Source: a virus. Taken from it: a stretch of DNA of 31,418 nt. Location of the stretch: positions 1 through 31,418 of IMG/VR virus record IMGVR_UViG_3300042880_000061; one strand, written 5' to 3'. Below, one piece after another: positions 4,975 to 11,147 of the stretch. Numbering within the stretch: the stretch's first letter is position 1; every line of letters begins with the position of its first letter. A model generated the notes under the pieces. It was not told the origin of the DNA and did not search any database. It saw only the letters and a list, made by a program, of their open reading frames with translations. A program made the translations under genes and the position numbers.

Positions 4975-5214
4975 ATGAGAAAGATATACCCAATACATGA
5001 AAGATTGAAGTTCGCGCCAAACGAACTACTATCGCCACAGGAACGCAAGATGGATATTTGGCAATTATTCATGAGGGAGTTTGACGCACTCAAACCTTCT
5101 GCACTGCGTGGTATGTCACTGCGAGAATACAACGGTCAGGTAATTGACGTGACGCAGTACATGAAGCTAAGAATCGTTGAGGTAAGGAATGAATTAAACA
5201 CAATTAACCCATGA
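4975..5214 (+). CDS. Hypothetical protein next to dnaB
   Basis: This 79-residue, charged, mainly helical protein starts 2 bases after dnaB stops and overlaps the next gene by ATGA, so it is part of the replication operon. LSPQERKMDIWQLFMREFD and YMKLRIVEVRNELN look like amphipathic helices. No domain is recognised. A role linked to helicase or primer synthesis is guessed from position only. Confidence 0.7.
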   Translation: MRKIYPIHERLKFAPNELLSPQERKMDIWQLFMREFDALKPSALRGMSLREYNGQVIDVTQYMKLRIVEVRNELNTINP

Positions 5215-5573
5215 TCACACAATTTGAAGAACTAACGACCGAACTCACCGCTGATGAACTTGCGATCCTGCCCATCGTTGTAGCTATCCTGAGCAACACG
5301 AGCGAGGCCAATCCACTCAAAGCCCCGTTGATCGTTTCAAAGGTGCAGATGGCAGTGGATAAGTCAGGCATGGACGTACCATTCAATGAGCGAAGGCTGC
5401 GAAAGTTCGTAAACCATATCCGTTGCACGGGCGAACTGCCGCTGATTGCCACCACGCATGGGTACTTTGTGACCGATGACGTGGAGGTGATTAAGAAGCA
5501 GATCAAATCGTTGGGCGAACGTGCAAGGTCAATTCAGATGTGCGCGGATGGGTTAGGGAGGTATTGCCTATAA
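5211..5573 (+). CDS. Small winged-helix-like replication-region protein
   Basis: The 120-residue product has a helix-strand pattern (LAILPIVVAIL, then RRLRKFVNHIRCTGELPLIA, then HGYFVTDD) typical of a winged helix, with the GYFVTDD strand as a wing, and a C-terminal helix EVIKKQIKSLGERARSIQ. Similar proteins sit beside dnaB in Bacteroidota prophages in my recollection; their function is unassigned. It overlaps the previous gene by 4 bases. Its TAA stop (5571-5573) is part of TATAAC, the left core of the first attC-like element, so its end may have been altered when the cassettes were inserted. Confidence 0.7.
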   Translation: MITQFEELTTELTADELAILPIVVAILSNTSEANPLKAPLIVSKVQMAVDKSGMDVPFNERRLRKFVNHIRCTGELPLIATTHGYFVTDDVEVIKKQIKSLGERARSIQMCADGLGRYCL

Positions 5574-5700
5574 CGTTTTGTGGCTTTGCAATGGGCAAGG
5601 ATTAGAAGCACTAAACTTTAAATTAAGTACAAATGATTGATAGAAATACAAATGTTCAAATAACCGATGAAGCCCTTGCTTTTGCAAAACCGATGTTATG
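5569..5700 (+). repeat. attC-like element 1 (upstream of the GIY-YIG cassette)
   Basis: Left core TATAAC (5569-5574) faces right core GTTATG (5695-5700). Inside them, TTTGCAATGGGCAAGG (5585-5600) imperfectly complements GCCCTTGCTTTTGCAAA (5672-5688). The central loop contains GGATTAGAA..CTTTAAATTAAGTACAA and the ATG at 5633 of the next gene. The arms are less well matched than in elements 2 and 3. Confidence 0.6.
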
Positions 5701-5974
5701 TGCCGTAATATCTCGGACTGAAATAACTCAAAAGCTGAATAAAGTAAAGGGTAGATATTTTGTTTATTTGCTTCTAAAGGATGATGAAGTTATTTATGTA
5801 GGTAGGTCTTTTAATCTCTCTTGCAGATTGAGTTGGCATAAATACAGAAAGGATTTTAAAGAGGTTTATTTAGCTGAGTATGAAACATACGCTGAATGTT
5901 GTCAAGCCGAAAAGCAAATAACAAAATATTACTCTCCAGTTGAAAATAAGTTGTGGGTTAATTATGGCACATAA
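5633..5974 (+). CDS. GIY-YIG nuclease-like protein (cassette A)
   Basis: The 113-residue protein is one GIY-YIG domain: FVYLL (43-47) and YVGRS (55-59) replace the name-giving strands, followed by Arg65, catalytic-type Glu93 in CQAEKQITKYYSP, and Asn105. The set of key residues suggests a competent metal-dependent endonuclease, though the family also includes inactive members. The first 21 codons lie inside attC-like element 1, and the recombination point G5695/T5696 falls on a codon boundary. The stop is in the CATAAC core of element 2. The gene is AT-rich compared with dnaB. As a small standalone domain it could be a homing-type nuclease, a DNA-processing enzyme or a defence effector; the substrate is unknown. 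Confidence 0.8.
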   Translation: MIDRNTNVQITDEALAFAKPMLCAVISRTEITQKLNKVKGRYFVYLLLKDDEVIYVGRSFNLSCRLSWHKYRKDFKEVYLAEYETYAECCQAEKQITKYYSPVENKLWVNYGT

Positions 5975-6099
5975 CGGTAAACGGCTATGAGTAGTGGCGG
6001 ATTTAGAACTACTCACTTTAAATTTAGCACAAATGACAATGGAAAGCACAGAACATCAAGAAAGCACTAACCCGCCATTACTTATAGCGAGTGTTAGCG
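5971..6099 (+). repeat. attC-like element 2
   Basis: Left core ATAAC (5971-5975) faces right core GTTAGCG (6093-6099). GCTATGAGTAGTGGCGG (5984-6000) pairs with CCGCCATTACTTATAGC (6072-6088) over all 17 positions, 15 Watson-Crick and two G-T. The loop holds a CACTTTAAATTTAGCACAA leader and ATG 6033. The cassette downstream of element 1 begins GTTATGTGCCGTAAT and ends ATTATGGCACATAAC, matching as an inverted repeat at 14 of 15 positions. Confidence 0.75.
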
Positions 6100-6254
6100 G
6101 TTCGGTTTACTTGACCGAAAATCAGATAGCTGAACTTGCTCAAATAGGTTGCCAACACTTATACTTAGGTGCAATGGACGAAGGTAGGATTAGTTACGGT
6201 GGTATTATGGAAATTCTTAAAAGGTATGAGGAGCTTCGTAAAACTTACCGCTAA
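6033..6254 (+). CDS. Hypothetical protein (cassette B)
   Basis: The 73-residue product starts at ATG 6033 (a second ATG follows at 6039); a longer reading from GTG 5994 is unlikely because CTTTAAATTTAGCACAAATG matches the leader of cassette A. The first 20 codons come from attC-like element 2, and the crossover G6093/T6094 falls inside the GTT codon of LLIASVSGS. The cassette body (VYLTENQIAELAQIG through YEELRKTYR) is an acidic alpha-beta protein with no family I recognise. Its TAA stop is in the CTAAC left core of element 3. Confidence 0.65.
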   Translation: MTMESTEHQESTNPPLLIASVSGSVYLTENQIAELAQIGCQHLYLGAMDEGRISYGGIMEILKRYEELRKTYR

Positions 6255-6379
6255 CGGCTGCGTGTATGAGCAGTTGCGGACTTTAACCACAAAACTTAAT
6301 TAAAAGCAGAAATTATGAATACACAAGAAACTTTATTTGAAACAAATAACCCGCAATTGCTTATACACGATGTTAGCGG
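6251..6379 (+). repeat. attC-like element 3
   Basis: Left core CTAAC (6251-6255) faces right core GTTAGCGG (6372-6379). GTGTATGAGCAGTTGCGG (6262-6279) pairs with CCGCAATTGCTTATACAC (6351-6368) over all 18 positions, 16 Watson-Crick and two G-T at the same relative places as in element 2. The loop carries the leader and ATG 6315. Cassette B begins GTTAGCGGT and ends ACCGCTAAC. Confidence 0.78.
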
Positions 6380-7031
6380 CTGTGCATTATTTCACGGAGA
6401 TTGTTTTTCTTTTTCAATACCTGAATACGATTATATAATAAGTGATTTGCCATACAATACAAAGTATGCAGATTGGGACAAAGGATTTAATGCCAATAAA
6501 TTTTTTGATATGAAAGCCAAAGGTTTTGTTTTGTTTGCGGTGCAACCATTAACAAGCGAACTGATTATGGCAAATAAAAAGCAATACAAGTATGATTTAG
6601 TTTGGAGTAAAAACTGCTACAAGAGTAATTCATTTAAAACAAGACCTGGCAGACAACACGAAACTATATTGATATTTGGGAATTTGCCATATAATGCTCA
6701 AATGACAAAAAGAACCGAAACAGAAATGCAAAGGTTGAATTATGAGCAAAGAAAAAAATATCAATACAAAAATCCTGGCAGCGTATTATTTTTTGATGCC
6801 ATAAACAACAGGAACGGAAATAGAACAGGACATCCCGCAGAAAAACCTTTGGATTTAATGGAATGGATTATTAAAACATTTACGAATGAAGGCGATACAA
6901 TATTTGACCCATTTATGGGAACTGGAACAACTGGCGTGGCTTGTCTGAAAAATAACAGAAAATTTATTGGCATTGAAAAGGAAAAACAATACTTCGATAT
7001 TGCCTCGGAGCGTCTTTTGCATTGCCGCTAA
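6315..7031 (+). CDS. Beta-class DNA methyltransferase, adenine-N6 or cytosine-N4 (cassette C)
   Basis: The 238-residue protein has motif IV as DLPY (44-47; usual DPPY) before motif I DPFMGTGTTG (198-207), the beta-class order, plus HPAEKP just upstream of motif I. It transfers methyl from S-adenosylmethionine to an exocyclic amine; DLPY is an accepted variant. Residues 1-19 (MNTQETLFETNNPQLLIHD) are encoded by attC-like element 3, and recognisable methyltransferase sequence (ALFHGDCFSF) starts immediately after the crossover point G6372/T6373, so the enzyme itself lies in the cassette. The stop is in the GCCGCTAAC core of element 4. The gene is AT-rich. No cognate restriction enzyme is evident. 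Confidence 0.9.
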   Translation: MNTQETLFETNNPQLLIHDVSGCALFHGDCFSFSIPEYDYIISDLPYNTKYADWDKGFNANKFFDMKAKGFVLFAVQPLTSELIMANKKQYKYDLVWSKNCYKSNSFKTRPGRQHETILIFGNLPYNAQMTKRTETEMQRLNYEQRKKYQYKNPGSVLFFDAINNRNGNRTGHPAEKPLDLMEWIIKTFTNEGDTIFDPFMGTGTTGVACLKNNRKFIGIEKEKQYFDIASERLLHCR

Positions 7032-7066
7032 CGTGATGCTATACGCTACAAAATAGCGTATATCAT
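7024..7066 (+). repeat. Short attC-like element 4 / hairpin between convergent genes
   Basis: GCCGCTAAC (7024-7032) is the left core. TGCTATACGCTA (7037-7048) pairs with TAGCGTATATCA (7054-7065) with one mismatch and a CAAAA loop. No GTTA right core follows, as expected if the last cassette joins non-attC DNA. The hairpin might also limit read-through between the convergent genes, although there is no T-run. Confidence 0.5.
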
Positions 7067-9404: not shown

Positions 9405-11147
9405 TTATGGTCGTGGGTTTTTGTATCCGTTGTTGGGCATATCGATTGGACGAGTGGATGCCTCCGCCCAATATTGTGCATCCTTAAATTCAAAGCCTTT
9501 CTTTTCTGCGCTGGCTTGACTGATTCGCTCATCGTTTTCAAGTCCTTTGTTGGGTAGGAATTTGCCGTTCTCACGTTTGCGCATGAAGGTCTGCCTTGTC
9601 CAAAAGTGGTGGCAATTCGCACCGCCCTTGTAAAGGAAAATGGAGTAGGTACTTTCACCTTTGGCGGCAAATTCGCTATTGATACCATCGTCACCCATGC
9701 GGATGATGTCCTCATACCGGTAAACCACACCTGCTTTGGATGCGGCCACCATGTTTTTGCAGAAGATCCGTGAGTTATCCGACAAAGCAGTGGAGTATCT
9801 GTATCTTACTTTGATCAATCCTGCATCGTTCTTAGACTTTGCGTCAGGATCTGCAAACCTCTTGAATAGTTTGACCGCTGAAAGTTCCTCGTCCGCCACG
9901 GGCTCGCCCTCCACCACTTCTTCATTCACTAGGTCGTAAAGCTCCATGTCGATCACCTCTCCTTTGTCTTGCAGGTAATTGAGCCATGCCACCTCTTGCT
10001 CCTCTGTCATGTCCATTTTAGCCGACAAATTAGCGTGTTGTTTTAACACGGGAGCGACAGGTGCAACGGGTTCGGTTGGTTTCACCTCAGTTGCTCCGAG
10101 TATGTTGTTCGGAATAATCACAAGGCCGCTGATATTGAGCGCTTCCTCAAGTGAATCGATGATCACTCGCTGCATTGGTTCAATCACGTTGGCCATGAAG
10201 ATCTCCAAACCTTGGCGCATTTCGTCCGCGTTGGAGCTGAATCCATCACCGCCATACTTTATACCAAAAAGAAGGGGTGTTGTGATCAAATGGCCCACAA
10301 GGATCTTCTCTGTGGCCGTTCGGTTCAATAGGTCATATTGCTTATCCGCATCATTGAGCTGGTAGGTCACGATGTCGGGCTTCTGTTGGTCAGGCTCATT
10401 GAACAACACCACCATTTTGCCTGCATTGCTCGCTCCCGTTGCGCCTTGCAATTCGCGCTTCATTGCTTGCTTAGCATCCTCGTCGGGTGTGCCGTTGAAT
10501 AGCGACACGATTGTGCCGGGCGCAAAGTTGTTGAGGATATTTGAAACGTGGAAAACACTGATCTGTCGATCGAGTTCAATATAGTTGATGCAGGACTTGT
10601 ACGACGGCTGCGGATAGTACACCGATGTGGTTTCATCGAGGAAACTGATCTTCACAAATCGCTTCACCTCTCCACTATTAAGTGGAATGTGCACGGGTTC
10701 GTTGATCTTCTTGCGATACTGCGCCCAATTCTTGGAATAATAGATACCCGTCACGTTGCTATTCTCATCCACGGCAAGCCTGCAATTTTCAAATGGCAAG
10801 TGTGTCACCTTCACCACTTCATCACTTCCAAGCGCCTTGATGCACTCCACGTAAAAGCCACCATAAAGCGACATATCCGATGCCACAGACGGCAAGATGC
10901 GACTGAGCCTATCGGTGTTGTATGTAGGAAGTGGTGCAAACCCTTTGCCAGCAATCATACGGGCCACTCCCTTCACGATTGCACCATGAACGGGTGAAGT
11001 GTCCGCAAGTTCTTTGAGATAAGTGGGGTATAGGTTGTCATCACCAAAGCTGAGCCATCCACTGCGCTCAATCTTTTCACTCGACGCCACGGGTTGGTAC
11101 TGAGCAAGCTCCACACGCGACACTCTTATATTTTTATTCGGTTCCAT
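9405..11147 (-). CDS. Portal protein with C-terminal extension
   Basis: The 580-residue protein has portal-like features: GWLSFGDDNLYPTYLKEL near 30-47, a helix-rich core, FAPGTIVSLFNGTPDEDAK (a clip/stem-type region), then ILVGHLITTPLLFGIK and FSSNADEMRQGLEIFMANVI (stem/crown). It would form the dodecameric DNA gate of the procapsid. After about residue 430 comes a separate domain (KVRYRYSTALSDNSRIFCKNM, then ANCHHFWTRQ) that also follows portals in other Bacteroidota phages, in my recollection, and may be a minor head protein fused to the portal. The gene overlaps the upstream gene by one base, and the neck gene follows. Confidence 0.78.
   Translation of the reverse strand: MEPNKNIRVSRVELAQYQPVASSEKIERSGWLSFGDDNLYPTYLKELADTSPVHGAIVKGVARMIAGKGFAPLPTYNTDRLSRILPSVASDMSLYGGFYVECIKALGSDEVVKVTHLPFENCRLAVDENSNVTGIYYSKNWAQYRKKINEPVHIPLNSGEVKRFVKISFLDETTSVYYPQPSYKSCINYIELDRQISVFHVSNILNNFAPGTIVSLFNGTPDEDAKQAMKRELQGATGASNAGKMVVLFNEPDQQKPDIVTYQLNDADKQYDLLNRTATEKILVGHLITTPLLFGIKYGGDGFSSNADEMRQGLEIFMANVIEPMQRVIIDSLEEALNISGLVIIPNNILGATEVKPTEPVAPVAPVLKQHANLSAKMDMTEEQEVAWLNYLQDKGEVIDMELYDLVNEEVVEGEPVADEELSAVKLFKRFADPDAKSKNDAGLIKVRYRYSTALSDNSRIFCKNMVAASKAGVVYRYEDIIRMGDDGINSEFAAKGESTYSIFLYKGGANCHHFWTRQTFMRKRENGKFLPNKGLENDERISQASAEKKGFEFKDAQYWAEASTRPIDMPNNGYKNPRP

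Follow-up and report, generated by a model that had tools for sequence, protein, structure and literature searches.

The question raised by three consecutive genes in the phage record IMGVR_UViG_3300042880_000061 (IMG/VR; 31,418 bases, here called the window) is whether they form integron-like gene cassettes and, if so, which stretch of DNA is the mobile unit. The block sits between a phage gene at 5211-5573 and a convergent endolysin gene, and each of its three open reading frames (ORFs) has a long inverted-repeat element on its 5' side. An original prediction, made from the letters of the DNA, had taken the genes for integron-like cassettes whose attC-like sites contain the start codons, and this part is supported. 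We consider it probable that the block holds three cassettes of an integron-like family that is common in Bacteroidia and in the phages of these bacteria. The anatomy of the elements, the covariation of their arms, the boundaries of the unit and the association with a recombinase were observed. In the list below, R1 denotes a covariance model built from 22 elements, the three of the window among them.

5571..5573, plus strand: stop codon (TAA) of phage gene 5211-5573, upstream of the block; here the insertion site is predicted to meet the backbone
5572..5697, plus strand: attC-like element 1, AAC core to GTT core (direct reading, repeats, R1 match)
5574..5974, plus strand: putative cassette 1, 401 bp, element 1 with the GIY-YIG body; proposed cuts between TAA and C at both ends
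5633..5974, plus strand: ORF 1, 113 amino acids, weak GIY-YIG (PF01541, 20.7 bits, cutoff 22.6), ATG in element 1
5973..6095, plus strand: attC-like element 2 (fold z -2.7, repeats, R1 match)
5975..6254, plus strand: putative cassette 2, 280 bp, element 2 with a small body
6033..6254, plus strand: ORF 2, 73 amino acids counted from ATG 6033, no Pfam family
6253..6374, plus strand: attC-like element 3 (fold z -4.9, repeats, R1 match)
6255..7031, plus strand: putative cassette 3, 777 bp, element 3 with the DNA methyltransferase body
6315..7031, plus strand: ORF 3, 238 amino acids, N6_N4 DNA methyltransferase (PF01555, 1.5e-34)
7032..7066, plus strand: backbone hairpin between convergent genes, element 4 of the original prediction (z -3.5 and -4.3), no right core

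Anatomy of the block

Direct reading and the repeat listing place the cores of the three elements at AAC 5572 and GTT 5695, AAC 5973 and GTT 6093, and AAC 6253 and GTT 6372. The ATGs at 5633, 6033 and 6315 fall inside the elements, which code for about 20 codons of each ORF; in the window, each gene thus takes its start codon and first codons from its own site. The frame of gene 2 reaches up to GTG 5994 in the ORF list, and ATG 6033 is the likelier start. As predicted, the stop codon of all three ORFs is the TAA in the following core, and the three cassette bodies have inverted, mutually complementary ends. The products are a weak GIY-YIG protein, a small protein and an N6/N4 DNA methyltransferase.

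Four repeat elements had been proposed, of which the first three are attC-like hairpins. The fourth (7032-7066) has no R1 match and was not flagged by a terminator scan; it is a small backbone hairpin and not an attC, and possibly a terminator. When the single strands were folded, elements 2 and 3 on the plus strand and the 7032-7066 hairpin did better than shuffles, and element 1 did not. Element 1 was identified via its relatives.

An element family common in Bacteroidia

Scans of viral and genome collections with the leader and the arm of element 3 returned 12 stretches. Ten of these carry the element (L016 and L017 being identical there), and the leader matches in the other two (L018 and L025) are due to chance. 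Other bodies stand behind the element in the ten stretches, except that L026 has the same methyltransferase as the window. Across 22 aligned elements there is a common stem of 17 pairs, 13 of which have changed on both sides with pairing retained, and a G-T pair is kept in 20 of the 22. On this alignment we regard the pairing in the attC-like stem as real.

R1 matches the three elements of the window (E 5e-22 to 2e-20) and recovers the element in all 11 source records of the training loci; as training members, neither set is an independent test. At E 0.01, 200 of 295 Bacteroidia genomes were positive vs 1 of 99 in an archaeal (Asgard) control phylum. The 295 genomes represent the class of a Flavobacteriaceae metagenome-assembled genome, with at most 11 candidates scored per genome. 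An Asgard source was rejected. One genome of the control phylum, G384, has two R1 matches (C28:4100-4233 and C5:7064-7193). Rfam returned a single microRNA match for the element, far below threshold. In the counts that follow, the two elements of L021 appear only as L120, and elements without a clear AAC or GTT, near-duplicates and elements near stretch ends were left out. One weak match on the reverse strand of L022, a palindromic duplicate, was kept in the neighbour-direction, core and in-frame counts.

Searched as a whole, the block matched 45 phage records, the best 20 of the 45 all through methyltransferase genes, and no plasmid; element 3 alone had no match among phages. A 47-nt stretch, the leader part of element 1, matches Flavobacterium phages at 83%, in 13 records if duplicates are counted.

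Gain and loss of a unit in cultured phages

Arrays of R1 elements occur in the cultured Flavobacterium phages mumin6-1, tooticki6-1 and filifjonk9-1; the elements and the annotated genes behind them are on the minus strand throughout. One unit of 506 bp is present in mumin6-1 and missing from mumin6-3, mumin6-4 and tooticki6-1. The occupied site in mumin6-1 runs from ...AGCGGTTAA into the unit, which begins CGTTTGGTGG... and ends ...TTGCATAA, and then into CGTTATCAGG...; at the empty site of the other three phages, ...AGCGGTTAA is joined directly to CGTTATCAGG... Removing the unit in silico gives the mumin6-3 sequence across 200 bp on each side. The motif TAACGTT is common to the junctions, which leaves the exact cut ambiguous within 7 bp, and the junctions at array ends (..ATAAC, then TACAATATT) narrow it to TAAC. 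The unit has its own ATG, at offset 78 within its element, and its own TAA. In addition, the array end beside the common stretch TAACTACAATATT varies among mumin6-1, tooticki6-1 and filifjonk9-1, as expected of an insertion end. A unit of this kind has been gained or lost in cultured phages, with junctions inside the core TAAC.

These phages also bear on whether the cassettes might be relics, once moved by a host integron and now fixed, with the hairpins kept as mere leaders. The poor fold of element 1 would suit such a history, and so would the phage copies that lack the left arm (L107, L121, L122). Movement in the isolates must nevertheless have been recent, as phages 99.9% identical over 8.5 kb differ by one cassette (mumin6-1 vs mumin6-3: two aligned pieces, 8,501 bp, 8 differing positions), and we find it quite improbable that the family is fixed. 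The elements at L121:403-524 and L122:2949-3070, seemingly without a left arm, retain the start codon and body and are perhaps immobile leftovers.

Which side of the element moves

In the usual integron layout, the integrase is followed by attI and then by gene-attC units. As the recombinase of the arrays lies at the R1-right end (see below), this layout makes the unit the element together with the DNA to its right, cut between TAA and C. The original prediction had the opposite polarity: startless bodies, each with an attC to its right, would be cut between the G and TT of the right core and expressed through in-frame fusion to the resident element, a departure from cassettes that carry a whole ORF.

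The two polarities were compared in a shared-body test of 195 elements with the longest flanks, using pairs from different genomes or contigs. Five families share a right body, and in all five the element is conserved as well (identity 0.83-0.99, against an average of 0.60 and a 95th percentile of 0.79 for random pairs), but the left flank is not; the L082/L131 pair is one that supports the proposed unit. Where only the left body is common, the element differs in three of three cases (0.49-0.74), and the 195-element comparison contains no case of a left body and element conserved with an altered right side. At the right-hand array ends, the terminal body closes with a core complementary to its own start, and no R1 element follows, in 10 of 14 cases (11/15 before exclusion of the L022 palindromic duplicate). 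Cassette 3 agrees with this, since its element and body (97% amino acid identity) recur between different flanks in another phage contig (L026/L101), in which no attC was seen by inspection behind the methyltransferase.

Startless bodies would account for two features of the data. In two body families the element in front varies between members, with the join close to the right core (L108-L110), and the distances from ATG to GTT (62, 59 and 50 nt by reading) keep the GIY-YIG frame behind three elements. Bodies with differing N-terminal elements, which the original prediction called for, thus exist, and exchanges such as it envisaged occur as well. As a general rule it is contradicted by the cultured phages, in which the unit is an element with its body, and by the shared-body test, in which a left body and element never move together; moreover, the right-hand element that it needs is missing behind most terminal bodies. 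We therefore regard it as quite unlikely, and take an element with the DNA to its right as the unit. On these comparisons, each cassette appears to comprise its own attC-like site with the ATG, a body and a TAA, i.e., a whole ORF, which would be expressed without a new fusion every time it inserts.

The recombinase at the array end

XerA and IntI are the nearest relatives of the tyrosine recombinases encoded beside the arrays, and the best matches among solved structures are those of XerA (PDB 5hxy, 4a8e). The IntI-specific domain is not there: 15-24 residues stand where VchIntIA (2a3v) has 58-70. All 10 array proteins score 135-222 bits with TIGR02249, under its cutoff of 265, and one of the 10 passes the cutoff of the XerA-type model NF040815 (226 vs 220). 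Relatives of the viral recombinase were present in all 15 array genomes searched, at a loose threshold that also meets XerC/D.

In every one of the 12 informative loci, the recombinase is found at the R1-right end, as at the fixed end of a complete integron; the other six of the 18 loci examined showed a recombinase and no element within the stretch fetched. Its gene runs opposite to R1, as do most cassette genes, in 8 of 10 bacterial loci, and along R1 in both viral loci. Ten further contigs with element and recombinase, among the matches listed, place the two on this same side in 10 of 11 pairings; in the remaining one (G264) they are 73 kb apart. At E 1e-38, the recombinase clade occurs in 139 of 200 element-positive vs 15 of 95 element-negative genomes, ignoring kinship. 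A viral contig of 246 kb has two recombinase genes, each directly behind a cassette array. The DNA-polymerase-like gene of this contig (L036:10816-12519) shows, by eye, an apparent intein-like insertion between YVDTDSV and VHNSGY.

The window record, which is possibly incomplete, has no match to a tyrosine recombinase or TIGR02249, in line with the predicted lack of an integrase, and neither do mumin6-1, tooticki6-1, filifjonk9-1 and the Polaribacter phage P12002L have a tyrosine recombinase match. The enzyme presumably acts in trans on these phages. With three R1 matches and no TIGR02249 match in this record, the block corresponds to a cluster of attC sites lacking an integron integrase (CALIN).

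Phages without a recombinase also invite an explanation with no dedicated enzyme, namely homologous recombination between the conserved leader repeats. Besides these four isolates, the 7 bp common to the mumin6-1/mumin6-3 junctions and elements that look chimeric (the left arm of L104 resembles L108) would be in keeping with it. Homologous exchange should spread junctions over the repeat of about 125 nt, but they lie at the core, and it leaves unexplained the mutually complementary body ends, the covarying arms and the fixed end of the recombinase clade. We consider it unlikely, and favor site-specific recombination at the core.

Gene direction and starts inside the site

Phage and bacterial arrays differ in the direction of their genes. 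Neighbour genes run along the R1 orientation in 48 of 51 cases in phage loci, and opposite to it in 147 of 159 cases in 15 bacterial loci. Among elements followed by a frame of 30 codons or more (31 of 43 distinct phage and 72 of 104 bacterial elements), 22 of the 31 phage and 8 of the 72 bacterial ones have a first loop ATG that is in frame and open. A fusion test in bacterial arrays had looked negative, but the genes there turned out to oppose the element. One bacterial array (L078:7206-7481) has a head-first ORF for a small cysteine-rich protein whose frame begins in the element.

The R1 strand, the one read in the window, folds better than its complement in 39 of 44 elements from phages and in 74 of 97 from bacteria. 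From the polarity of the unit and the end at which the recombinase lies, R1 corresponds to the canonical bottom strand, and the elements thus show the strand asymmetry of attC sites, for which bottom-strand selectivity of recombination is described in passages of PMC8946536.

Proposed mechanism and its weak points

We propose that an attC-like hairpin of about 125 nt and its own gene form one cassette. A XerA-like tyrosine recombinase, IntI-like in its place in the array but without the IntI-specific insertion, would recombine folded single strands between TAA and C, and phages would use such an enzyme in trans, from the host or another phage. A head-first phage cassette that lands behind a phage stop codon would then be read by the phage operon. 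For the window, the predicted empty site has GCCTATAA, up to 5573, followed directly by CGTGATGC, from 7032 on, behind the stop of gene 5211-5573. The methyltransferase and nuclease carried as cargo most likely act in anti-restriction and competition. For such a benefit, the link between a methyltransferase and plating reported for cultured phages in the excerpts considered of PMC7077304 is suggestive, the gene concerned possibly being one of the cassettes.

Several results weigh against this proposal. Recombination was deduced from sequence comparison and none was observed, and the empty site of the window's own block was not found in relatives. The fold of element 1 is no better than shuffles (z -1.0), and the GIY-YIG body was not found in the 295 Bacteroidia genomes, so a bacterial source of cassette 1 is not shown. 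Two of the five shared-body families also stand behind a different element (0.67-0.77), joined near the right core, the L108-L110 joins included, and a matched partner stands to the left in 4 of 18 terminal-left cases (4/19 before exclusion of the L022 duplicate). Sixty-one of the 200 element-positive genomes have no recombinase match at E 1e-38, and the co-occurrence ignores kinship. Lastly, the annotated start lies inside the element in 6 of 11 mumin6-1 elements and 21-46 nt beyond it in the other five; the start within the site is thus common, not universal.

As to the surroundings of the block, no relatives of the flanking gene 5211-5573 were found among viral contigs. The sister phages L002-L004, chosen by DnaB (82-83%), were rejected as empty sites; they are without the three cassettes, but the flanking gene is missing too. 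Where the window has its cassettes, L002 has a strongly repetitive, alanine-rich protein with AAYAAD repeats (9783-10391). A second DNA methyltransferase of the window, of the C5-cytosine type (801-1823, PF00145), lies outside the block, and by eye a protein within 9484-10617 of L004 resembles it and adjoins cassette-side genes. A scan of the window for sigma-70 promoters stayed at chance level, with a model ill-suited to Bacteroidota.

Comparison with known systems

The arrays share with the cassettes of chromosomal integrons and CALINs the AAC and GTT cores bounding an imperfect hairpin (for element 1 by homology only), complementary cassette ends, in the window and in relatives, and a tandem arrangement. 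A tyrosine recombinase at one end and strand asymmetry are further likenesses. Unlike in integrons, the recombinase has no IntI-specific insertion and stays under the integron-integrase cutoff, and in phages the gene points in the opposite direction and may begin within the site that belongs to it. Because of this missing IntI feature, the arrays should not be filed as classical integrons, though they work like one. To our knowledge, XerA-type recombinases, whose structures are the nearest solved ones, are not known as cassette integrases.

Closest to our findings are the 17 phage CALINs of Qi et al., 2023 (PMC9892861), where attC sites recombined by IntI1 and methyltransferase cassettes are described in phages, including P12002L. 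We find an R1 match in P12002L at 39118-39248 (E 1.4e-8). The attC2 site of this phage, possibly the one matched here, is active with IntI1 according to the same excerpts. The excerpts are silent on starts inside attC, on a Bacteroidia-wide family and on XerA-like recombinases. The Muminviruses of PMC7077304 are the cultured phages analyzed here. Some of them plated poorly on LMO6 and lacked a methyltransferase that others had, and the words integron and cassette are absent from the article's text; in the excerpts considered the genes are not described as cassettes.

Translation signals that come from the recombination site or a neighbour are reported for ORF-11 and ORF-18 in attI and for fused cassettes (passages of PMC8876359). 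There the frame belongs to attI or an attC has been lost, whereas here the cassette's own attC codes for the start. The portion of the open-licence literature covered, preprints excluded, holds no report of starts inside attC or of a Bacteroidia-wide family, nor do passages of PMC8876359, PMC8618304, PMC8352920, PMC9024848, PMC9668308 and PMC8946536. In such passages, integrons of Bacteroidota are reported as scarce (PMC8618304, PMC9668308); the article on IntegronFinder 2.0 (PMC9024848) mentions earlier finds of In0 elements and a single complete integron, that of Salinibacter ruber; and the IntI-specific domain is held necessary for integron recombination (PMC9668308).

Implications

The findings suit a variant of integron-like cassettes that departs from known integrons in three ways: a recombinase without the IntI domain, a wide occurrence in Bacteroidia, and phage genes that run away from their own site, with the site as their 5' end. 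We lean towards a broader reading, in which Bacteroidia would have a distinct and largely overlooked class of integrons run by XerA-like recombinases without the IntI domain, together with a phage pool of head-first cassettes. In these, the hairpin would be the 5' leader and start of the gene, and the cassettes would be traded via a recombinase in trans to alter anti-restriction genes.

If the arrays function as integrons, then integrons are widespread in a very abundant class of bacteria, and this branch does without the IntI-specific domain. One site would serve together as recombination hairpin and coding 5' end. For the phages, the cassettes would be a concrete means of changing methyltransferases. 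This route is testable at once in the cultured Muminviruses, whose plating differences are tentatively tied to a methyltransferase in the excerpts of PMC7077304.

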